Origin: a virus
Direction: 5' to 3' (one strand)
Length of the DNA stretch: 20,372 nt
Virus record (IMG/VR): IMGVR_UViG_3300009184_000283
Span: 1-20,372 of that record
Below the pieces are notes generated by a model. It worked only from the letters and a program-made list of their open reading frames with translations, did not search any database and had not been told where the DNA came from. Made by a program: the position numbers and the translations under genes. Each line of letters starts with the position of its first letter. Position 1 is the first letter of the stretch. This document shows, piece after piece, positions 1 through 13,388 of the stretch.

Positions 1-195
1 CAATTTGATGAACTTGCGCCCGCCGTCGAATGGGCGAAAGAGCGCGCTAAAAAATACAACCACGCCCACGTCTGGGATAATCGAATTTACGGCACGGTGT
101 GGAATGAATCTCTTCCGCCCAACACCGCAGTCAGCCACGCCGGGAGGACGGGGCCGGAATCGCCCTGCGGGCCAAGCCCCGGCGTTGCGCTGTAG
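1..195 (+). CDS. 3' end of an unknown gene, running into an attC-like site
   Basis: An open frame enters from the left edge with no start inside the window and ends at TAG 193-195. The first 40 or so residues look like ordinary protein (for example EWAKERAKKYNHAHVWD followed by a VWNES stretch). From about base 117 onward the translation becomes Pro/Gly-rich and low in information. This is because the DNA there is an imperfect inverted repeat (117-208), and the stop codon lies inside its right arm. That arrangement is common for genes carried in integron cassettes, whose stop often falls inside attC. I do not recognise the family. The alternative small frame starting at ATG 8 in another phase looks less protein-like. 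Confidence 0.55.
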   Translation, partial: QFDELAPAVEWAKERAKKYNHAHVWDNRIYGTVWNESLPPNTAVSHAGRTGPESPCGPSPGVAL

Positions 196-208
196 TGCAT
201 GGTTAGCC
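117..208 (+). repeat. attC-like integron recombination site (59-base-element-like inverted repeat)
   Basis: The left end GCCCAAC (117-123) fits the R'' core RYYYAAC. The right end GTTAGCC (202-208) is an R'-like GTT core. Pairings I can trace: AAC 121-123 with GTT 202-204; unpaired 124-126 against 199-201; GCA 127-129 with TGC 196-198; T131 with A194; CAGC 132-135 with GCTG 189-192; C136 with G187; ACGCCGGG 137-144 with CCCGGCGT 178-185. Bases 186, 188 and 193 bulge out on the right arm only. Core boxes, a central unpaired spacer, one-sided extrahelical bases and a variable loop of about 33 nt are the known hallmarks of attC. The next gene starts 10 nt after the site. No integrase gene is in the window. 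A chance hairpin or other mobile repeat remains possible. Confidence 0.55.
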
Positions 209-533: not shown

Positions 534-863
534 ATGCTCGCCGCCCTCCTCCGCTACTCCCGCCGCGAACGCCGCGCCGTTGCCCAATCGTGGGCGCGGC
601 GGTCGCACGCGACGCGGGCTGCTCGGCGCATGGAGCGCGGGCCGGATGCCGACACGCTCCGCCGTCGTGCGCTGCACGATGCGCGCGGGCAGATCGTGCG
701 CGATGGTGTCACTTACCACGGAGACGGGCGCGTTACGCCGTGGTGCGTGCGGCGCTCGGTTGCGGGGCGCACGGATCAATTCGATGTTGTGCTTGCCGGT
801 ATTGTTTGGCGCACGGGTGGAGCGCGATTGCTTGCGGGATGGTTTGGAAAGGTCGCGGTATGA
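534..863 (+). CDS. Unknown basic protein translationally coupled to the terminase
   Basis: This is a 109-residue, very Arg-rich protein. Its stop codon TGA (861-863) overlaps the terminase ATG at 860 in an ATGA junction, which supports it as the real gene over the competing long frame. The N-terminal half (residues 5-50) is strongly basic and helical. The C-terminal half looks like a small beta-rich unit (DGVTYHGDGRVTPWCVRRS, then GRTDQFDVVLAG and a WRTGG stretch). It sits where phages usually encode the small terminase subunit, and its basic charge would allow DNA binding. However, I see no clear helix-turn-helix, so a small-terminase role is only a positional guess. No Shine-Dalgarno is seen before ATG 534. 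Confidence 0.65.
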   Translation: MLAALLRYSRRERRAVAQSWARRSHATRAARRMERGPDADTLRRRALHDARGQIVRDGVTYHGDGRVTPWCVRRSVAGRTDQFDVVLAGIVWRTGGARLLAGWFGKVAV

Positions 864-2650
864 CTATTGCCGACGCACTCCTCGCCAAGCTGCGCCTCCC
901 GCAGCCCGACCGCTCTCCGATCTACGAGTGGGCTCGGAAGCACATCACGCTCCCCGAGAGCTACGCAACGCCGGGACCGTTCAACGCGCGCATCACGCCG
1001 TGGCTGATTCCTATTTTCGACGCGCTCCAAAATCCACTCGTGCGCCGAGTGCATTTCCGCAAGGCCGTGCAAATCGGCGGCACGCTCGTCGCTGACATTT
1101 GGATTCCGTGGCTGATTGCGAACGACGCCGGGCCGATCTCGTGGACGATGCAGACCGACGAAATGGTCGAGAAGCATTGCAAATCGCGCCTGAACCCATT
1201 GCTCGAACGGTGCAAGCCCGTCGCGTCGATGCTCCCGAAGCCGGGACCGAACCGGATGACTACCGAGATTTACTTCGGCGGATTCTTCCTCTCGCTCAAC
1301 CCGGCGAATCTTTCAACGCAGCAGTCGCAGTCGATTCGATACAAGGTGAACGATGAAATCTGGCTCCCGCGCTGGCAGGAGGTTTACGGTCACGCCGTCG
1401 CGCGCGTGTCGAAGTTTGAAGAGGTCGGGCGTTCGAAGATTTACAACGTGTCGCAAGCGCCCGAAATGTCCGCCGAGGTCGGCAACGTCGAGGATACGAG
1501 CTACCGCGCCGGCAATCAGCAGGAGTGGCACGCGCTTTGCCCGTCGTGCGGCAAGGCTCATCCCGTGACGTTCTCGCAGCCTTCGATCGACGACAAGGAA
1601 ACGCGCGGCGGAGTCATCTGGGACCGCACAGCGAAGCGGGACGACGAGACGTGGGACGTTGCGCGAGCGGTCGAGAGCACGCGCTTTCGCTGCATCCACT
1701 GCGGCCACGAGTCGCCGGACACCGACGCGACGCGTAACCATTGGCGCAAAACTGGGCATTACATCGCCGAGCGACCCGACGCGCCGGCTGAAATCCAAAG
1801 TTTTCGCATCGAGGCGCTTGTTGCTCGCCCGATGAAGATGCTCGTGGAGGAGTTTTGCGAGGCCGAGAACCAATGGGCGAAGCGCGGCGAGGACAGGATG
1901 AAGATGGAGTTTCGCACCAAGCGCGAAGCCAAGCCGTGGATTGTGGAGAAGAAGACCGTGAATCTTTTCGTGCAGTCGAGCGGCTACAAGCTCGCCGACT
2001 ACACGCAAGGTCAAGGCATCGAGAACGAGGCGATCCGATTTATGACCATCGACCGCCAGCTTGACCATTGGTGGGTCGAGATCGGCGCATTCGCAACCAA
2101 CGGCGGCACGCGTTACCGACAGCTGCACTTCGGGCGCATTGACACGCGCGACCAATTGCGCGCGCTGCAACTGCGTTACAAGGTCGCCGACGCGTGCGTT
2201 GCGCAGGACCGCGGCTACCGTCCGAGCGACGTTGACCGCGACTGCGCCGACTTTGGGTGGCGCTCGATGCGAGGACACGCGCGCAAGACATGGACGATGC
2301 GGGACGACGCGACGGGCAAGCTGATTAACTTCCCGTTTTCCGATCCGCAGGTCAGCGACTACCGCGGCGGTGACGTTTACTTCTACAACTGGAGCGGCGA
2401 CTACTTCAAGGACGTGCTCCAGACCGCGCTTGAAGGCAAAGGAGACCTCAAATGGGAGCTTCCCGACGACGTGAACCCGCTGTATTTGCAGCACCTCAAA
2501 GGCGAATCCAAGGTCGAGGTTCGCGCGGGCGTCTGGGAGTGGCGCGAAGTCAAAAGCAACGCCGCAAATCACGGTCTCGACACGTCGGCGATGATGCTTT
2601 GCATCGCCACGATTGCGGGCGTGGTGCGCTACGTTCCGGCGACCGCCTAG
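860..2650 (+). CDS. Terminase large subunit, GpA family (DNA packaging ATPase/nuclease)
   Basis: This protein pumps phage DNA into the prohead and cuts it at the ends. I start it at ATG 860, giving 596 residues and overlapping the upstream stop (ATGA). The open frame extends to 512, but that extension is Cys/Arg/Pro-rich noise. The N-terminal ATPase domain has a Walker A-like RKAVQIGGT (67-75) and a Walker B-like KVNDE (162-166). A zinc-ribbon-like pair CPSC (227-230) and CIHC (278-281) follows, as in lambda gpA relatives. The nuclease domain shows candidate metal-binding acids D398 (MTIDRQ), D450 (AQDRGY) and D574 (HGLDTS). Length fits the family. The gpW-like joiner and portal follow, as in lambda A-W-B. 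The family call is secure; residue assignments are by eye. Confidence 0.93.
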   Translation: MTIADALLAKLRLPQPDRSPIYEWARKHITLPESYATPGPFNARITPWLIPIFDALQNPLVRRVHFRKAVQIGGTLVADIWIPWLIANDAGPISWTMQTDEMVEKHCKSRLNPLLERCKPVASMLPKPGPNRMTTEIYFGGFFLSLNPANLSTQQSQSIRYKVNDEIWLPRWQEVYGHAVARVSKFEEVGRSKIYNVSQAPEMSAEVGNVEDTSYRAGNQQEWHALCPSCGKAHPVTFSQPSIDDKETRGGVIWDRTAKRDDETWDVARAVESTRFRCIHCGHESPDTDATRNHWRKTGHYIAERPDAPAEIQSFRIEALVARPMKMLVEEFCEAENQWAKRGEDRMKMEFRTKREAKPWIVEKKTVNLFVQSSGYKLADYTQGQGIENEAIRFMTIDRQLDHWWVEIGAFATNGGTRYRQLHFGRIDTRDQLRALQLRYKVADACVAQDRGYRPSDVDRDCADFGWRSMRGHARKTWTMRDDATGKLINFPFSDPQVSDYRGGDVYFYNWSGDYFKDVLQTALEGKGDLKWELPDDVNPLYLQHLKGESKVEVRAGVWEWREVKSNAANHGLDTSAMMLCIATIAGVVRYVPATA

Positions 2651-2930: not shown

Positions 2931-5084
2931 ATGGAAACCTTCGACCCGTCCAAAGTCATCGCAGAGCGCCCGTGGATTGACAAAGCGATTGAAGCCGTGG
3001 CGCCGTCGTGGGGCAAACAGCGTTTGCAGTCTCGCGTCGAGACCGCGCTTTTCAGCTACAACGCGGCGCAGACGAATCGGCTTTATGCGCCGAAGACCTA
3101 CGGGCAACCGAGCGAATCGACGCAGACCTCGCGCTCGCGTGTCGTGATGATGTGGGAAGCGCGCGACCTCGTGGAAAACTTTCCCGAAGCGCGCGAGATC
3201 ACGCGCAAATTCGGGAACTACCTTACGCCGAACGAATACTCGCCGACGACGCAGGACCGCGCCTATAACCAAATCGTTTCCGAGTTCTTTCACGAGTGGT
3301 GCAAGCGGTGTGATGTGACTGGCCGGCACACGTTCAAGAAGCTCGTGCAGCTCGGATGCGAAGAGCGCCCGGTTGACGGCGACTGCGGCTTTGCGATTCG
3401 CCGCGTAGGTGACGAGTTGAAGATTCAACTGGTTCCAGGGACGCGCATCGGAAATCCGAACGCGCTCGGCGCTGAGTCCGACAACTACTATCAGGGGATC
3501 ATCACCGACGAGTTTGGCAAGCCGGTCGCGTATCGCGTTTATCGAGTCACGCGCGAAGGCGTTTACTTCGGCGCCGAGGACGTGGAGGCGCATAACTTCT
3601 GCCACTACTTCGACCCGTTCCGCGTCGATCAATACCGCGGCATAACCGACTTCCACGCAGCAATCAAAACGTCGCGGATGCTTTACGAGATTCTCGAAGC
3701 CGAGAAAGCGGGCGTGCGCTTCGCGTCGCAGCAGGCCGCGCTCGTGTTTAACGACCGCGGGAGCGCAAACCCGCGCAATCTGTTCACGCCGTCGCCGACC
3801 GTAACCATGCCGAACGGACAGTCGCAGCAGAACGAGATGTCGGAGGTGGGAATGATTCGTTACATGGGGACGGCCGACCGCGTCGAGGTCATGCCATCGC
3901 GCCCGTCCGCGGCCTTCGCCGGCTTCGTGCAACATCTGATGCACGAGATTGCAATCGGCGTCGGCGTTCCCGAGGGAGTGCTTTTCGGGACGCAGGATTA
4001 CAAGGGGCCCAGCGTGCGCGCAGAGTTCGCCGCGGCTGACCGCGTGTTCACGCGGCATCAGGGCGTGCTCACCGACAAGGTGCTCGACCCGATCAAAAAC
4101 GCCGTAATTCTCGATGCCATCGCGCGCGGAGAAATTCCGCCGCCTCCGCTGCAAGCGGGCGAAACGATGGTCGCCGCGCTCCGTCGCGCGACTTCCGGCG
4201 AATGGCGTTTCCCGGCCAAGCTTTCAATCGACGTGGGCCGCGAGTCGGCGGCGAATCTAAACGAAAACCGCCAAGGCGCGAAGTCGCTCCAAGAGATCGC
4301 CGGTGAAGAGGGCACGGACGCTTTCGCTCGCTTGGAGCAAATCGCGATTGAGGCGAGCTACGTCAAGGAGCTGGCGAACAAATACGGCGTGCCAGAAACC
4401 GCGATTCGTCTCGTCACGAGTTCGCTCCCAAGCACGCCGGCGGCGGCGGCAGCGGTCGGCGATAACGTCGCGGCGGCAGCAGCGCAGGCACAAGTCGACT
4501 CGACTGCGGCGACCAACTCGGGCGCAGCGTCGGACGGCGGCGAATCTGAAGATTCAGCGGCGCTCTCGATGAAATTCGCGGCGGCATCCTACGTGCCGAA
4601 CGACGCGATGGTCGCAAATGCGAAACGTGCGCTCGACGTGCGCGAGAAAGCCTCGCCGTCGAACCGCGGAATGACTGACGTCGGCATCGCTCGCGCTCGC
4701 GACATTATGAACAAGCGACCGCTCTCCGAAGATACGGTGCGGCGCATGAAGGCATATTTCGACCGGCACGAGATCGACAAGCAAGGCGAGACATGGGGAG
4801 AGCAGGGCAAAGGCTGGCAGGCGTGGAACGGCTGGGGCGGCGACGCCGGCCAGACGTGGGCCAATGCAATCGTCGAGCGCCTCAACACTGGGCGAAACAG
4901 CTCGGCGCGCGAACGCATCGCGCTCGCTCTCGCTGGTCCGACCGCACGCAAGCTCGCTCGCAACGAGGTGATCGTGCGAAAACAGGTTCGCATCTCCGCG
5001 ATGCGAAAACGGCTCGGCAACAGCAACGCTTCGCCCGAGATGACGCGTCACACGTTTGAACGTATGGGCGTGGCGAAGAAGTGA
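2931..5084 (+). CDS. Portal protein, lambda gpB family, with an extra C-terminal domain
   Basis: The portal forms the ring at one head vertex through which DNA passes. Residues 1-495 follow the lambda gpB-type pattern: an N-terminal region with SRSRVVMMWEARDLVENFP (67-85), a core with VDGDCGFAIRRVGDELKIQLV (148-168), the helix region DFHAAIKTSRMLYEILEAEKA (240-260), and VGVPEGVLFGTQDYKGPSVRAE near 344-365. An Ala-rich low-complexity linker (about 500-548) then leads to a separate domain at about 554-652 (YVPNDAMVANAKRALDVRE, then TVRRMKAYFDRHEIDKQG and WNGWGGDAGQTWANAIV). That domain is one I associate with other phage head proteins. At 717 residues the protein is much longer than lambda gpB (about 530). 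The start ATG 2931 has a CCATG context without a Shine-Dalgarno. Confidence 0.9.
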   Translation: METFDPSKVIAERPWIDKAIEAVAPSWGKQRLQSRVETALFSYNAAQTNRLYAPKTYGQPSESTQTSRSRVVMMWEARDLVENFPEAREITRKFGNYLTPNEYSPTTQDRAYNQIVSEFFHEWCKRCDVTGRHTFKKLVQLGCEERPVDGDCGFAIRRVGDELKIQLVPGTRIGNPNALGAESDNYYQGIITDEFGKPVAYRVYRVTREGVYFGAEDVEAHNFCHYFDPFRVDQYRGITDFHAAIKTSRMLYEILEAEKAGVRFASQQAALVFNDRGSANPRNLFTPSPTVTMPNGQSQQNEMSEVGMIRYMGTADRVEVMPSRPSAAFAGFVQHLMHEIAIGVGVPEGVLFGTQDYKGPSVRAEFAAADRVFTRHQGVLTDKVLDPIKNAVILDAIARGEIPPPPLQAGETMVAALRRATSGEWRFPAKLSIDVGRESAANLNENRQGAKSLQEIAGEEGTDAFARLEQIAIEASYVKELANKYGVPETAIRLVTSSLPSTPAAAAAVGDNVAAAAAQAQVDSTAATNSGAASDGGESEDSAALSMKFAAASYVPNDAMVANAKRALDVREKASPSNRGMTDVGIARARDIMNKRPLSEDTVRRMKAYFDRHEIDKQGETWGEQGKGWQAWNGWGGDAGQTWANAIVERLNTGRNSSARERIALALAGPTARKLARNEVIVRKQVRISAMRKRLGNSNASPEMTRHTFERMGVAKK

Positions 5085-7802: not shown

Positions 7803-8273
7803 ATGAACACGCGGACGACACTTCTCACTGCGGGCGTCGTCTGCGTGCTCGGCGCGTTGCTTTTACTCGGGCTGCGCAATCATCGCGCGCTTGAGCGAGG
7901 ACTCCCGCCGCGGATCGCGTGCGAATCACAGGCCGCGGCAAAGATCGCAGCGGGGCCGAACGCGATTGCGATTCTCGGCACCGGCTCTATGGCGCCTTTC
8001 ATTTCGCCGGCTCCAGCGGGCAGTAATCCGCTGGAGACCGTCGTCGCCTACGCTGCGCCGGCACCGGGCGGAACTTACGAGCAGATCAAAACTGGGTCGC
8101 TCGTTGTTTACGCCGCGGAATGGTCGCCGCAGTTCTCGGTTATTCATCAGGCCGCGCAACGGGAGGACGACGGATGGGTGATGACCGGACTGAACAACAA
8201 GGGATATGAAAACCGATACCGCGTAACTGCGGCAAACTTTCGGGCGCTCGTTTCGACAATATACGTATGGTAA
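7803..8273 (+). CDS. Membrane-anchored S26 signal-peptidase-like protein
   Basis: This 156-residue protein has an N-terminal membrane anchor (residues 7-24, LLTAGVVCVLGALLLLGL). The next part looks like a signal-peptidase/LexA-type core: ILGTGSMAPFI (57-67) resembles the catalytic Ser box (GxSMxP), with S62 as candidate nucleophile. IKTGSLVVY (95-103) resembles the 'GDIVVY' strand, SVIHQA (112-117) places H115 where archaeal/ER-type S26B enzymes have their catalytic His, and WVMTGLNN (125-132) resembles 'xxTKGDNN'. It would therefore use a Ser/His pair rather than the bacterial Ser/Lys pair. Substrates could be phage membrane or virion proteins, but this is inference. The match is by motif only; an inactive or receptor-like derivative is possible. 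Confidence 0.6.
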   Translation: MNTRTTLLTAGVVCVLGALLLLGLRNHRALERGLPPRIACESQAAAKIAAGPNAIAILGTGSMAPFISPAPAGSNPLETVVAYAAPAPGGTYEQIKTGSLVVYAAEWSPQFSVIHQAAQREDDGWVMTGLNNKGYENRYRVTAANFRALVSTIYVW

Positions 8274-8279
8274 GCAGCC

Positions 8280-8963
8280 ATGCGTTCCAATTTCACAAGC
8301 CAGCAGCGGACTTCGGCGCGTGCGCTTGGGGTGATTTTCTTCGCGCTTGGCATCGTTGCAGTCGCGGTTTTCTGCGTCGGGTGCGGCTCGATGAAGAGCG
8401 CGAGCGCAATCGTAGCGCAGCAGACTCCAGGGCAATCGTCCGGCGCTGGTGCGACGTTTCAAGGGCCGGCGAATAGCGCAGCACCCAGCACGCAAATAGC
8501 GCAGCGCCGCGCGTCCTACTATCCGGCGCCTACCCGCCAGTGGCCTTTGCCGACCACCGGCATCAAACCGGCGCAAGATGCCGCGCCGCAAACGAGCGTG
8601 CCCGTATTGCGAACAGACGAGCCGCAAACGGCCATGCCGCCGATGCCTTCGCCCGCGTGGATTGACGAGCGCACCGAGACGACGTTCGGACAGCATCAAG
8701 ACGCAGCCGGACTAGTGCAGGCCGCGACCGCAATGGGGAGCTGGGGTCGCGCTCGATGGTTCGGGATTCTCTGTGTGCTGTTCGCTGCGTTCGCGTTGGC
8801 GTGGGCGCATAATAACCCGGAGGGCTATCCGCTCATCGCGTGGAAGATCGGCGCCGTGGGGATGTTCCTCGTCGTTTTCGACCCGAGTCCGTGGTGGCTG
8901 CTCCTGCTCATCATTCCGGGGGTTTTCTACATCGTGCAAAAACTAAAGATAACTCTGCCATGA
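8280..8963 (+). CDS. Lipoprotein-like multi-TM protein, candidate unimolecular spanin
   Basis: This 227-residue protein has a basic N-terminus, a hydrophobic stretch (about 15-34) and CVGC with Cys35 at a lipobox-like place (the -3 Cys is atypical). A long Ala/Pro/Gln-rich, disordered linker (about 40-150) follows. Three hydrophobic segments then end the protein (about 160-176, 184-200, 204-219). A lipidated N-terminus plus Pro-rich periplasmic linker plus C-terminal membrane anchor is the plan of unimolecular spanins, which fuse inner and outer membranes at the end of lysis. Known examples such as T1 gp11 have one C-terminal TM, so three is unusual. The next gene overlaps it (ATGA). It could instead be a different membrane protein; no endolysin is visible in the window. 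Confidence 0.55.
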   Translation: MRSNFTSQQRTSARALGVIFFALGIVAVAVFCVGCGSMKSASAIVAQQTPGQSSGAGATFQGPANSAAPSTQIAQRRASYYPAPTRQWPLPTTGIKPAQDAAPQTSVPVLRTDEPQTAMPPMPSPAWIDERTETTFGQHQDAAGLVQAATAMGSWGRARWFGILCVLFAAFALAWAHNNPEGYPLIAWKIGAVGMFLVVFDPSPWWLLLLIIPGVFYIVQKLKITLP

Positions 8964-11687: not shown

Positions 11688-13388
11688 ATGCCACGAATCT
11701 CCCTTTGCGTCATCTGCGGCAACGAGTCCGAGCACATCGCCGCAATGCTCAATTCGTTCGTGCCGTGCTTCGACGAACTCTCGCTTGTGCGCGCCATCGG
11801 CAAGCGCGAGTCGGATGACACGATGCAGCAGGCGCAAGCGTGGTGCGCGGCGAACGGAAAGGCGTTTCTCTTTGGCGAATACCGCAACGGATTCACGGCG
11901 CGCGATTGGGACCACGTCGATTCGTTCGGTGCGGCGCGCAATCAGGCATTCCGGCAGGCAACGGGCGACTGGCTGATTTGGGCCGACTGCGACGACACAT
12001 CGGAAGGCGCGGAAAAACTGCGCGACGATCTCGGCGCAATTCCCGCAGATGTCTCGATGGTGCGCTACGCCTACGACGTGCGCGGAAGCGGGAAAAAGCT
12101 CATGAGGGAGCGAGCGATTCGCTCGGCAGCGTTTCGCGATGGGCGCGTCTGGCATCATGCCGTGCACGAAAACCTTTTGATTCTTCCCGGCGACAAGCAC
12201 GAGGACCGGCACGCGTGCGTCTGGGTCCATTCGCCCAACAGCGTAAAGCGCGAGAACCGTCGGCGAAATCTGCGCATCCTCGGCAATAGCGTGATCGAGT
12301 GCGCAACGCAGTATTTCTACATTCACCAAGAGCACTACTGCAACCAAGACAAGCAGGCCGCGGAGCAGTTCGGCAAACTCGCGTTGCAGTTCCCGAATCT
12401 GCAACCGTCGTTTCGTTACGAGACGCTCCTCAACCTCGCGCGCATCTGCGGCAATTATCGCGAGGCGATGACGTATTGCATGGAGGCGCACGGCATCTTT
12501 CCGTGGTGTCGCGAGGCCGTCGCCGCGATGATCTTGCTGCACTTCGAGAAACGCGACGCTCGGCGCGCGACATGGTGGGCCGATCGAATGCTGGAGCTGC
12601 GCGAGCCCGCCGAGGCCGAGCGTCCGTGGACTCACGAGGCGAAGTATTACGGCTGGGCCGGCTTGGACATCGCGGCGCGCGCGTATCGCATGGCGGGAAA
12701 TCGCGTGCAAGCCGACGGACTTCAAGAGAGATTTCACGCTCAGGCCAAGCCGACGATCTCGCTCCTTCACGCGACGCGCGGGCGCTCGACGAAGGCCGTC
12801 GGATGCCGCGAGGCGTGGCTGAACACGGCGGCAAATCCTTGGAACGTCGAGCACATCTTCGCAGTCGATTCCGACGACAAGGAAAGCGCGCAAATGTCGA
12901 AGCAGTTTGTGAGCGTGCGCAGTGAGAAAAGGTCGTGCGTCGCGGCGTGGAATCTCGCGGCAAAGGCGGCGCGCGGAGATTTAATTGTGCAGCTTTCCGA
13001 CGATTGGTTGCCGACGCCGAACTGGGATTTGAAGTTGCTGGACCTCGTGAAAGGACGCGACCTCGCGCGCGAGCAAATCGTGATCGCGGTAAACGACGGT
13101 CATCGGCGCGATGACCTGCTCTGCATGGCGATTCTTTCGCGCGCTCGGCTAGAGGCCCAGGGCGAGCTTTTCTTCGACGGCTACGAATCCGTTTTCAGTG
13201 ACAACGAGTTTTCCGTTCGCGCTTTCGCCGACGGCGTGGTGATCGACGCGCGCGACAAGATCACGTTTGAGCACGCGCACCCGGCTTTCGGCAAGGCGCC
13301 GATTGATAAGACCTACGAGCACAACAATTCAAGCGAACGCTACAAGGCCGGCAAGGCGTTGTTCGACGCTCGCAACCCATCAAAATGA
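11688..13388 (+). CDS. Double glycosyltransferase (GT2) with TPR-like middle
   Basis: This 566-residue protein appears to hold two GT-A domains. The first (about 1-185) begins ISLCVICGNESEHIAAML and has the DxD-type metal site ADCDD (99-103). It also has the WHHAVHENL patch (155-163) typical of GT2 enzymes that carry TPR repeats. Residues about 195-350 are helical TPR-like repeats (AAEQFGKLALQFPNL, then RICGNYREAMTYCMEAHGIF). The second domain (about 355-566) starts TISLLHATRGRSTKAV, with DSDD (394-397) and QLSDDWLP (435-442) as metal/nucleotide-site candidates. It likely transfers sugars to a phage or host surface target. It is the first gene after the capsid terminator and overlaps the methyltransferase start (ATGA). 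No Shine-Dalgarno is visible. Domain calls are motif-based. Confidence 0.82.
   Translation: MPRISLCVICGNESEHIAAMLNSFVPCFDELSLVRAIGKRESDDTMQQAQAWCAANGKAFLFGEYRNGFTARDWDHVDSFGAARNQAFRQATGDWLIWADCDDTSEGAEKLRDDLGAIPADVSMVRYAYDVRGSGKKLMRERAIRSAAFRDGRVWHHAVHENLLILPGDKHEDRHACVWVHSPNSVKRENRRRNLRILGNSVIECATQYFYIHQEHYCNQDKQAAEQFGKLALQFPNLQPSFRYETLLNLARICGNYREAMTYCMEAHGIFPWCREAVAAMILLHFEKRDARRATWWADRMLELREPAEAERPWTHEAKYYGWAGLDIAARAYRMAGNRVQADGLQERFHAQAKPTISLLHATRGRSTKAVGCREAWLNTAANPWNVEHIFAVDSDDKESAQMSKQFVSVRSEKRSCVAAWNLAAKAARGDLIVQLSDDWLPTPNWDLKLLDLVKGRDLAREQIVIAVNDGHRRDDLLCMAILSRARLEAQGELFFDGYESVFSDNEFSVRAFADGVVIDARDKITFEHAHPAFGKAPIDKTYEHNNSSERYKAGKALFDARNPSK

Follow-up and report, generated by a model that had tools for sequence, protein, structure and literature searches.

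The question raised by this locus is whether the hairpin element at the left end of the window, 5' of the terminase gene of a phage, is part of an integron, and if it is, how the adjoining genes are arranged with respect to it. Integrons are familiar from bacteria, as platforms whose gene cassettes stand behind a promoter located beside the attI site. The window is an entire IMG/VR record, a linear fragment of 20,372 bases. The original prediction placed an attC-type integron site at positions 117-208 and suggested that, if the site was real, the phage had acquired a gene cassette or had attC sites beside its packaging genes. The site and the acquisition of gene cassettes beside the packaging genes were both borne out, the first by a match to a model of chromosomal attC sites and by covariation of the hairpin arms. 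The element was confirmed as a real feature of the sequence. With a probability of roughly 0.87, it is an integron attC site on the minus strand, within a cassette array 5' of the terminase that would be recombined by an integrase and has its genes antisense to the attC sites.

The window carries a set of genes typical of tailed phages, recognized with PHROG and Pfam. The large terminase subunit (860-2650, plus strand; phrog_15, PF05876) has the cassette array immediately 5' and is accompanied by a portal gene (2931-5084) and by genes for a head protease, a major head protein, a glycosyltransferase and a tail tape measure protein. The glycosyltransferase (Glycos_transf_2, phrog_14945) is found at 11688-13388, with the major head protein on one side and the tail genes on the other. 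No named phage was found to resemble the window at the DNA level, and the closest named terminases, including that of Verrucomicrobia phage P8625, are only about 22% identical to the terminase of the window. When bacterial genomes were scanned with the terminase, one MAG contig (L082) was found, which was without the elements described here.

On the plus strand the parts of the element are as originally described. The end boxes are GCCCAAC (117-123) and GTTAGCC (202-208). In the inner arms, ACGCCGGG (137-144) pairs with CCCGGCGT (178-185) and CAGC (132-135) with GCTG (189-192). A central spacer is formed by 124-126 opposite 199-201, and the unpaired bases 186, 188 and 193 occur on one arm only. 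The stop codon of the upstream gene is inside the element (193-195), and the next ATG is at 219. The strand originally assigned had to be reversed, both from the strand matched by the chromosomal model and from the position of the extrahelical bases. These belong by definition to the R''-L'' arm of an attC site (PMC2727003), and because they sit on the right arm of the plus strand (178-198), R'' corresponds to 208-202, GGCTAAC on the minus strand, and R' to 123-117, where GTTGGGC fits GTTRRRY. The canonical top strand is then the minus strand, with 124-126 as the R' side of the spacer and 127-144, including the variable stem, as the L'-side arm. Read in this direction, 117-208 displays inverted R''/R' and L''/L' boxes, a spacer, and extrahelical bases on the R''-L'' arm, the parts that define the structure of attC. 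Folding of the single strand left the spacer unpaired in the centroid, as had been proposed, but the folding energy was ordinary with respect to shuffled sequences (z = -0.27 for 117-208, and -0.07 and -1.37 for the two strands of 100-225) and is therefore uninformative. A search of the element against Rfam gave no match.

Relatives of the window provided the material for comparison. Contigs L003 and L007 have terminases about 98% identical to that of the window, and their genes 5' of terL are different. Between those genes there are elements of one plan: a box ending in AAC, GTCAGC, a variable stem, its complement, GCTG and a box beginning with GTT, often followed by a run of T. The exact right-arm pattern of the window had no match in the viral contigs searched, and a degenerate pattern drawn from the relatives matched 18 stretches in IMG/VR. 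A covariance model made from four elements (R1) found further copies. The refined model, R2, gave 91 matches, of which about 85 had E < 0.003, with as many as 14 in one array; the match in the window was at 113-216 in the orientation of the genes. Both R1 and R2 include the window, and sites in the same contig are related, so that these counts are not numbers of independent events. In contig L005, which has a terminase 95% identical to that of the window, neither an array nor an anchor of the kind described below is present between a gene resembling the small terminase subunit and terL (1000-1510, compared with 1-860 of the window); the array is therefore polymorphic at this place beside terL.

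Among 40 elements, 84% of the cells pair, compared with 65.6 ± 1.1 in shuffles. The inner helices (helices 3 and 4 of the family, to which the L'-side arm at 127-144 of the window contributes) pair in 99.5% and 97% of the cells, with many double changes. Covariation of this strength across some 85 copies does not agree with conservation purely as coding sequence, the outcome against which the original prediction had been set. The pairing is Watson-Crick, G-U pairs being nearly absent among 751 cells, and this scarcity is expected of a structure formed in DNA rather than in RNA. It bears directly on the idea that the element functions at the RNA level, as a terminator or a translation-coupling structure between late genes, with a coincidental likeness to attC. 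The GC-rich inverted repeat followed by a run of T at 209-216 would suit such a function, but the T-run begins more than 20 nt past the strong stem. Termination also leaves unexplained the complementarity of the boxes that flank genes, the gene swaps that have their boundaries at a box, and the matches to a model of chromosomal attC sites. On the distance of the T-run, the scarcity of G-U pairs, and the box and swap evidence, the terminator was rejected, and an RNA-level element is barely credible.

The identity of the elements as attC sites was assessed with a third model. Loci containing intI, together with adjoining DNA, were taken from gammaproteobacterial genomes with bona fide integrons, and 12 of their chromosomal attC sites were used to build the covariance model R3, which contains no phage sequence and thus avoids circularity. 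As a positive control, it gave 93 matches in 250 kb of chromosomal integrons. R3 matched 34 phage elements at E < 1, namely that of the window and 33 sisters, the best with 45.3 bits (E = 4e-10), and all 34 matches were on the strand opposite to the genes and to R2, which is oriented in the direction of the genes. Among related contigs totalling 285 kb, most of them free of arrays, R3 gave three marginal matches (E of at least 0.3) and one true site, in L107. Reciprocally, the phage model matched chromosomal attC sites almost solely on the strand opposite to the array. The R boxes of the phage family often deviate from GTTRRRY, as in GTTCGGC and GTTAGCC.

In the window, R3 matched exactly 117-208 of the minus strand, so that an attC model does recognize the element, as the original prediction demanded; with 17.5 bits and E = 0.053 over 243 kb, this match is weak alone. 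When the right arm was modelled as a sequence profile from which the window, L003 and L007 had been left out, 180-209 of the window ranked first with 17.3 bits; the best in 100 simulated windows was 12.2 bits. Like this profile, R3 excludes the window. Taken by itself, the window site is a marginal attC call.

The strand on which R3 matches also weighs on the initial reading of the elements, that of a plus-strand attC with R' at 202-208, in a standard array with genes sense to attC. GCCCAAC fits RYYYAAC, GTTAGCC fits GTTRRRY at 6 of 7 positions, and some chromosomal cassettes, such as the one from Treponema, have a stop codon at or in attC. All 34 of the R3 matches are on the other strand, however, and the extrahelical bases are on the plus-strand right arm. 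Further evidence against it comes from the anchors, which have the left box but neither a hairpin nor a right box after it, and from attI, which adjoins the start of intI in three relatives and thereby fixes the direction of the array. A plus-strand attC is very unlikely, having been overturned by the chromosomal model together with the anchor junctions.

The minus-strand attC makes a further prediction about the boxes. In a circular cassette, the end box pairs with the R'' box at the other end, and the two boxes of an arrayed hairpin derive from different cassettes. In 41 of 57 cases, the boxes flanking a gene in the phage arrays were complementary throughout their four variable positions; 8.1 were expected, and none of 5000 shuffles reached as high a number. 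Boxes flanking a hairpin matched at the level of chance (2.36 of 4 positions vs 2.33 in shuffles). This pattern is the signature of integron cassette recombination, which we infer from it. In the window, GTTAGCC at 202-208 is perfectly complementary to GGCTAAC at 488-494, a box close to where the next gene ends, and pairs poorly with its partner in the hairpin. The window, L003 and L007 are different before the box at 488-494 and nearly identical from its AAC onward. No hairpin lies behind this box, nor behind the last box found in most arrays. Because of the box pairing, the boundary of the swap at AAC and the lack of a hairpin after 488-494, the crossover is assigned to the left box (AA^C on the plus strand, G^TT on the minus strand), the box at 488-494, GTTAGCC on the minus strand, is regarded as an attI-like anchor, and the cassette is taken to extend from 123 to 493. 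The putative crossover points are between 122 and 123 in the R' box, on the side indicated by the anchor junctions, and between 493 and 494 in the anchor.

Box complementarity and the junctions in L003, L007 and L021 thus delimit a cassette consisting of the attC site and the ORF at 219-524 without its tail. This ORF, of 101 aa on the plus strand and antisense to attC, remains in frame across the anchor, where AAC at 492-494 is one of its codons, and ends at a stop codon beyond it; the ORF had no match in Pfam or PHROG. The gene that travels with the attC of the window would be this downstream one, and not, as originally supposed, the gene that ends inside the site. The latter (1-195, plus strand), whose 5' end is outside the record, is the ORF of the preceding cassette; AAC at 121-123 is in its frame and its stop codon is inside attC. 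Alignment of the window with L003, L007 and L021 defines a constant flank of the anchor at 495-533, which encodes the tail KADMPTCSK and a stop codon, and the tail NKADMPTCSK is common to unrelated genes in the window, L003 and L007, where the genes themselves have turned over. Across the family, 49 of 62 left boxes have their AAC in the reading frame of the upstream ORF; this ORF ends before the right box in 54 of 62 cases, and the downstream ORF has an in-frame ATG within attC in 24 of 53. With junctions of this kind, a protein acquires its C-terminal tail from whichever attC follows, or from the anchor. In L109, two attC sites of opposite arrays (3078-3202 and 8200-8324; G019) are near-identical inside and are flanked on either side by different genes, a pattern that would arise if exchange could take place at both boxes.

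The attC sites have the normal direction relative to attI and intI in the phages; it is the ORFs that are turned round. By a single scoring rule, 58 of 66 phage cassettes had their ORF antisense to attC, and 44 of 67 chromosomal cassettes had it sense to attC; with the open frame as the only measure, 57 of 66 in the chromosomal control were sense. In the phages, the coding strand is identified as the one antisense to attC by open frames and by codon-position composition alike, and this strand encodes the domains Dam, N6_N4_Mtase, C5 methylase, PAPS reductase, RNA ligase, ASCH and DUF5131. Eighty intI loci were fetched from IMG/VR, and 32 could be tested, having two or more attC sites close enough. 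ORFs were mostly antisense in 29 of these (78 of 90 segments), most of the 32 being viral by their IMG/VR listing rather than by a locus-by-locus check of phage genes. One exception, L241, has mixed ORF directions, and its record number resembles that of an isolate genome. The typical orientation, with ORFs sense to attC and diverging from intI, is not that of the phage arrays.

These proportions could in principle arise from true attC sites if the antisense ORFs were an artefact of strand choice in GC-rich DNA, or if bacterial contigs had been misfiled as viral. GC-rich DNA has long antisense frames, and 29 of the 66 phage segments are more than 90% open on the other strand too; the PHROG coverage of G293 and G295 is thin, and the classification of most intI loci by listing leaves room for misfiling. 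Such an artefact is nevertheless very unlikely, in view of the codon-position composition, the known domains on the antisense strand, and the opposite result that the same score gives for chromosomal arrays. Head, portal or terminase genes are present in all six contigs checked, and the window itself is phage by PHROG and Pfam.

The original prediction had also called for a search for further attC sites and for intI. Related contigs yielded arrays that extend to about 19 sites in the fully read main array of G295, and some of them contain intI; no intI was found in the window record or its nearest relatives. The window thus presents an attI-like anchor without intI. It also has one attC, where a CALIN has at least two, and the record starts 116 bases before it. 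Other arrays without intI are those of L007, with four attC sites, and G305, with about ten. An IntI scoring above the NCBIfam cut-off is encoded in four array-bearing contigs. The residues R, K, H, R, H and Y are invariant in the phage IntI proteins, the catalytic residues being intact, and their best solved structural relative is an integron integrase (2a3v, E = 1.9e-58). Three of the related phage contigs, G293, G295 and G296, contain complete integrons, in which the anchor is 35-40 nt before the start codon of intI, and intI reads away from attI. Phage genes in the contigs with intI include a major head protein and a tail fibre in G296, a terminase in G293 and in G304, and an SU10-type portal in G295.

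Several other features of these recombinases were observed. In the IntI of G304 (L179, 1396-2298, minus strand), the N-terminal part is replaced by the start of an apparent methyltransferase ORF; a cassette-made fusion or a product of decay is possible. A motif located between the attI box and the start of intI, AAC..TGATTC..TTCGTATATCAAAATG, is shared by G293, L272, L275, L277 and L278, and is possibly a phage attI consensus or a promoter of intI. There are further tyrosine recombinases in G293, G300 and G304, outside the scoring with the IntI model. Virus Rctr41k, a named virus from a methane-oxidising enrichment, has an IntI-like gene annotated as xerD (L200, 4680-5678), and no attC of the phage type was found in the 17.6 kb read.

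The most likely mechanism would be that of known integrons: an integron integrase binds attC as a folded bottom strand and recombines it at the R' box, here the left box of the plus strand. The partner would be an attI-like anchor, as at 488-494 of the window, or another attC. In relatives the integrase would be encoded by the phage, and for the phage of the window it may be supplied in trans by the host or a co-infecting element. Each cassette would consist of an attC followed by a gene antisense to it. Since each gene is antisense to attC, the array would form a single operon, co-directional with the late genes and with any intI, which follows attI, and presumably expressed from a phage promoter. 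For the same reason, an inserted cassette would extend the phage operon and adjoin attI at its end, so that the entry point for new cassettes would be the distal end, next to intI, and not beside a Pc promoter. The genes would be read in frame through the junction, with the next attC or the anchor supplying their C-terminal tail and stop codon, and in many cases would start inside their own attC.

The recognizable cassette genes encode DNA methyltransferases, a PAPS-reductase-like protein, an RNA ligase, an ASCH protein and DUF5131. Judging from these gene types, the array probably serves as a variable stock of genes for counter-defence and accessory functions. Gene-swapping by integrons appears to exist in phages in a form of their own. 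We consider it reasonably likely that they possess an integron class of their own, with a conserved layout of attC sites and antisense, stop-less genes in one operon ending in attI-intI, and that whole genes and in-frame tails are reassorted in it as a counter-defence store; some phages, including that of the window, would keep only the anchor and attC array and depend on an integrase in trans. If such a recurrent inverted version exists, expression would be from the phage operon instead of Pc, the newest cassette would be last, beside intI, and strand selection at attC would serve the opposite gene direction. Phages would have a defined mechanism for turnover of small accessory genes near the terminase, and their trade in counter-defence genes would become testable by the existing plasmid assay. 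Pipelines that assume ORFs to be sense to attC could misread such arrays.

Integron sites in phages, thought in the original prediction to be rarely reported, have been described before: attC sites and integrons are known from 21 named phages, and 5 of 6 phage attC sites tested were active with IntI1 (PMC9892861). The same study noted that attC sites may also be weak terminators, and described typical arrays as running in the same direction, with one phage having divergent attC sites; it mentioned no inverted class (PMC9892861). The present arrays resemble those of Qi et al. 2023 (PMC9892861) in having phage attC sites and arrays with or without intI, and methyltransferases among the cassette genes. 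What sets them apart is that they form a recurrent family in which the ORFs are antisense, the junctions are in frame, and a conserved anchor adjoins terL or intI. No description of the inverted-cassette layout was found in the literature searched, the scope of which excluded preprints and most subscription journals. With the chromosomal (sedentary) integrons of gammaproteobacteria they share the structure of attC, the location of attI at the start of intI, the IntI family, and the complementarity of boxes within a cassette. In chromosomal integrons, the ORFs are sense to attC and diverge from intI, whereas the phage ORFs run toward attI and are co-directional with intI. A different inversion is known in Treponema, the "reverse integron", in which intI is flipped and reads toward attI, and the cassette described in detail has its stop codon at R'', i.e., an ORF sense to attC (PMC3607928, PMC7691350). 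That arrangement is not the one in G293, G295 and G296: what is inverted in Treponema is intI, and in the phage arrays it is the cassette ORFs, with intI in its usual direction.
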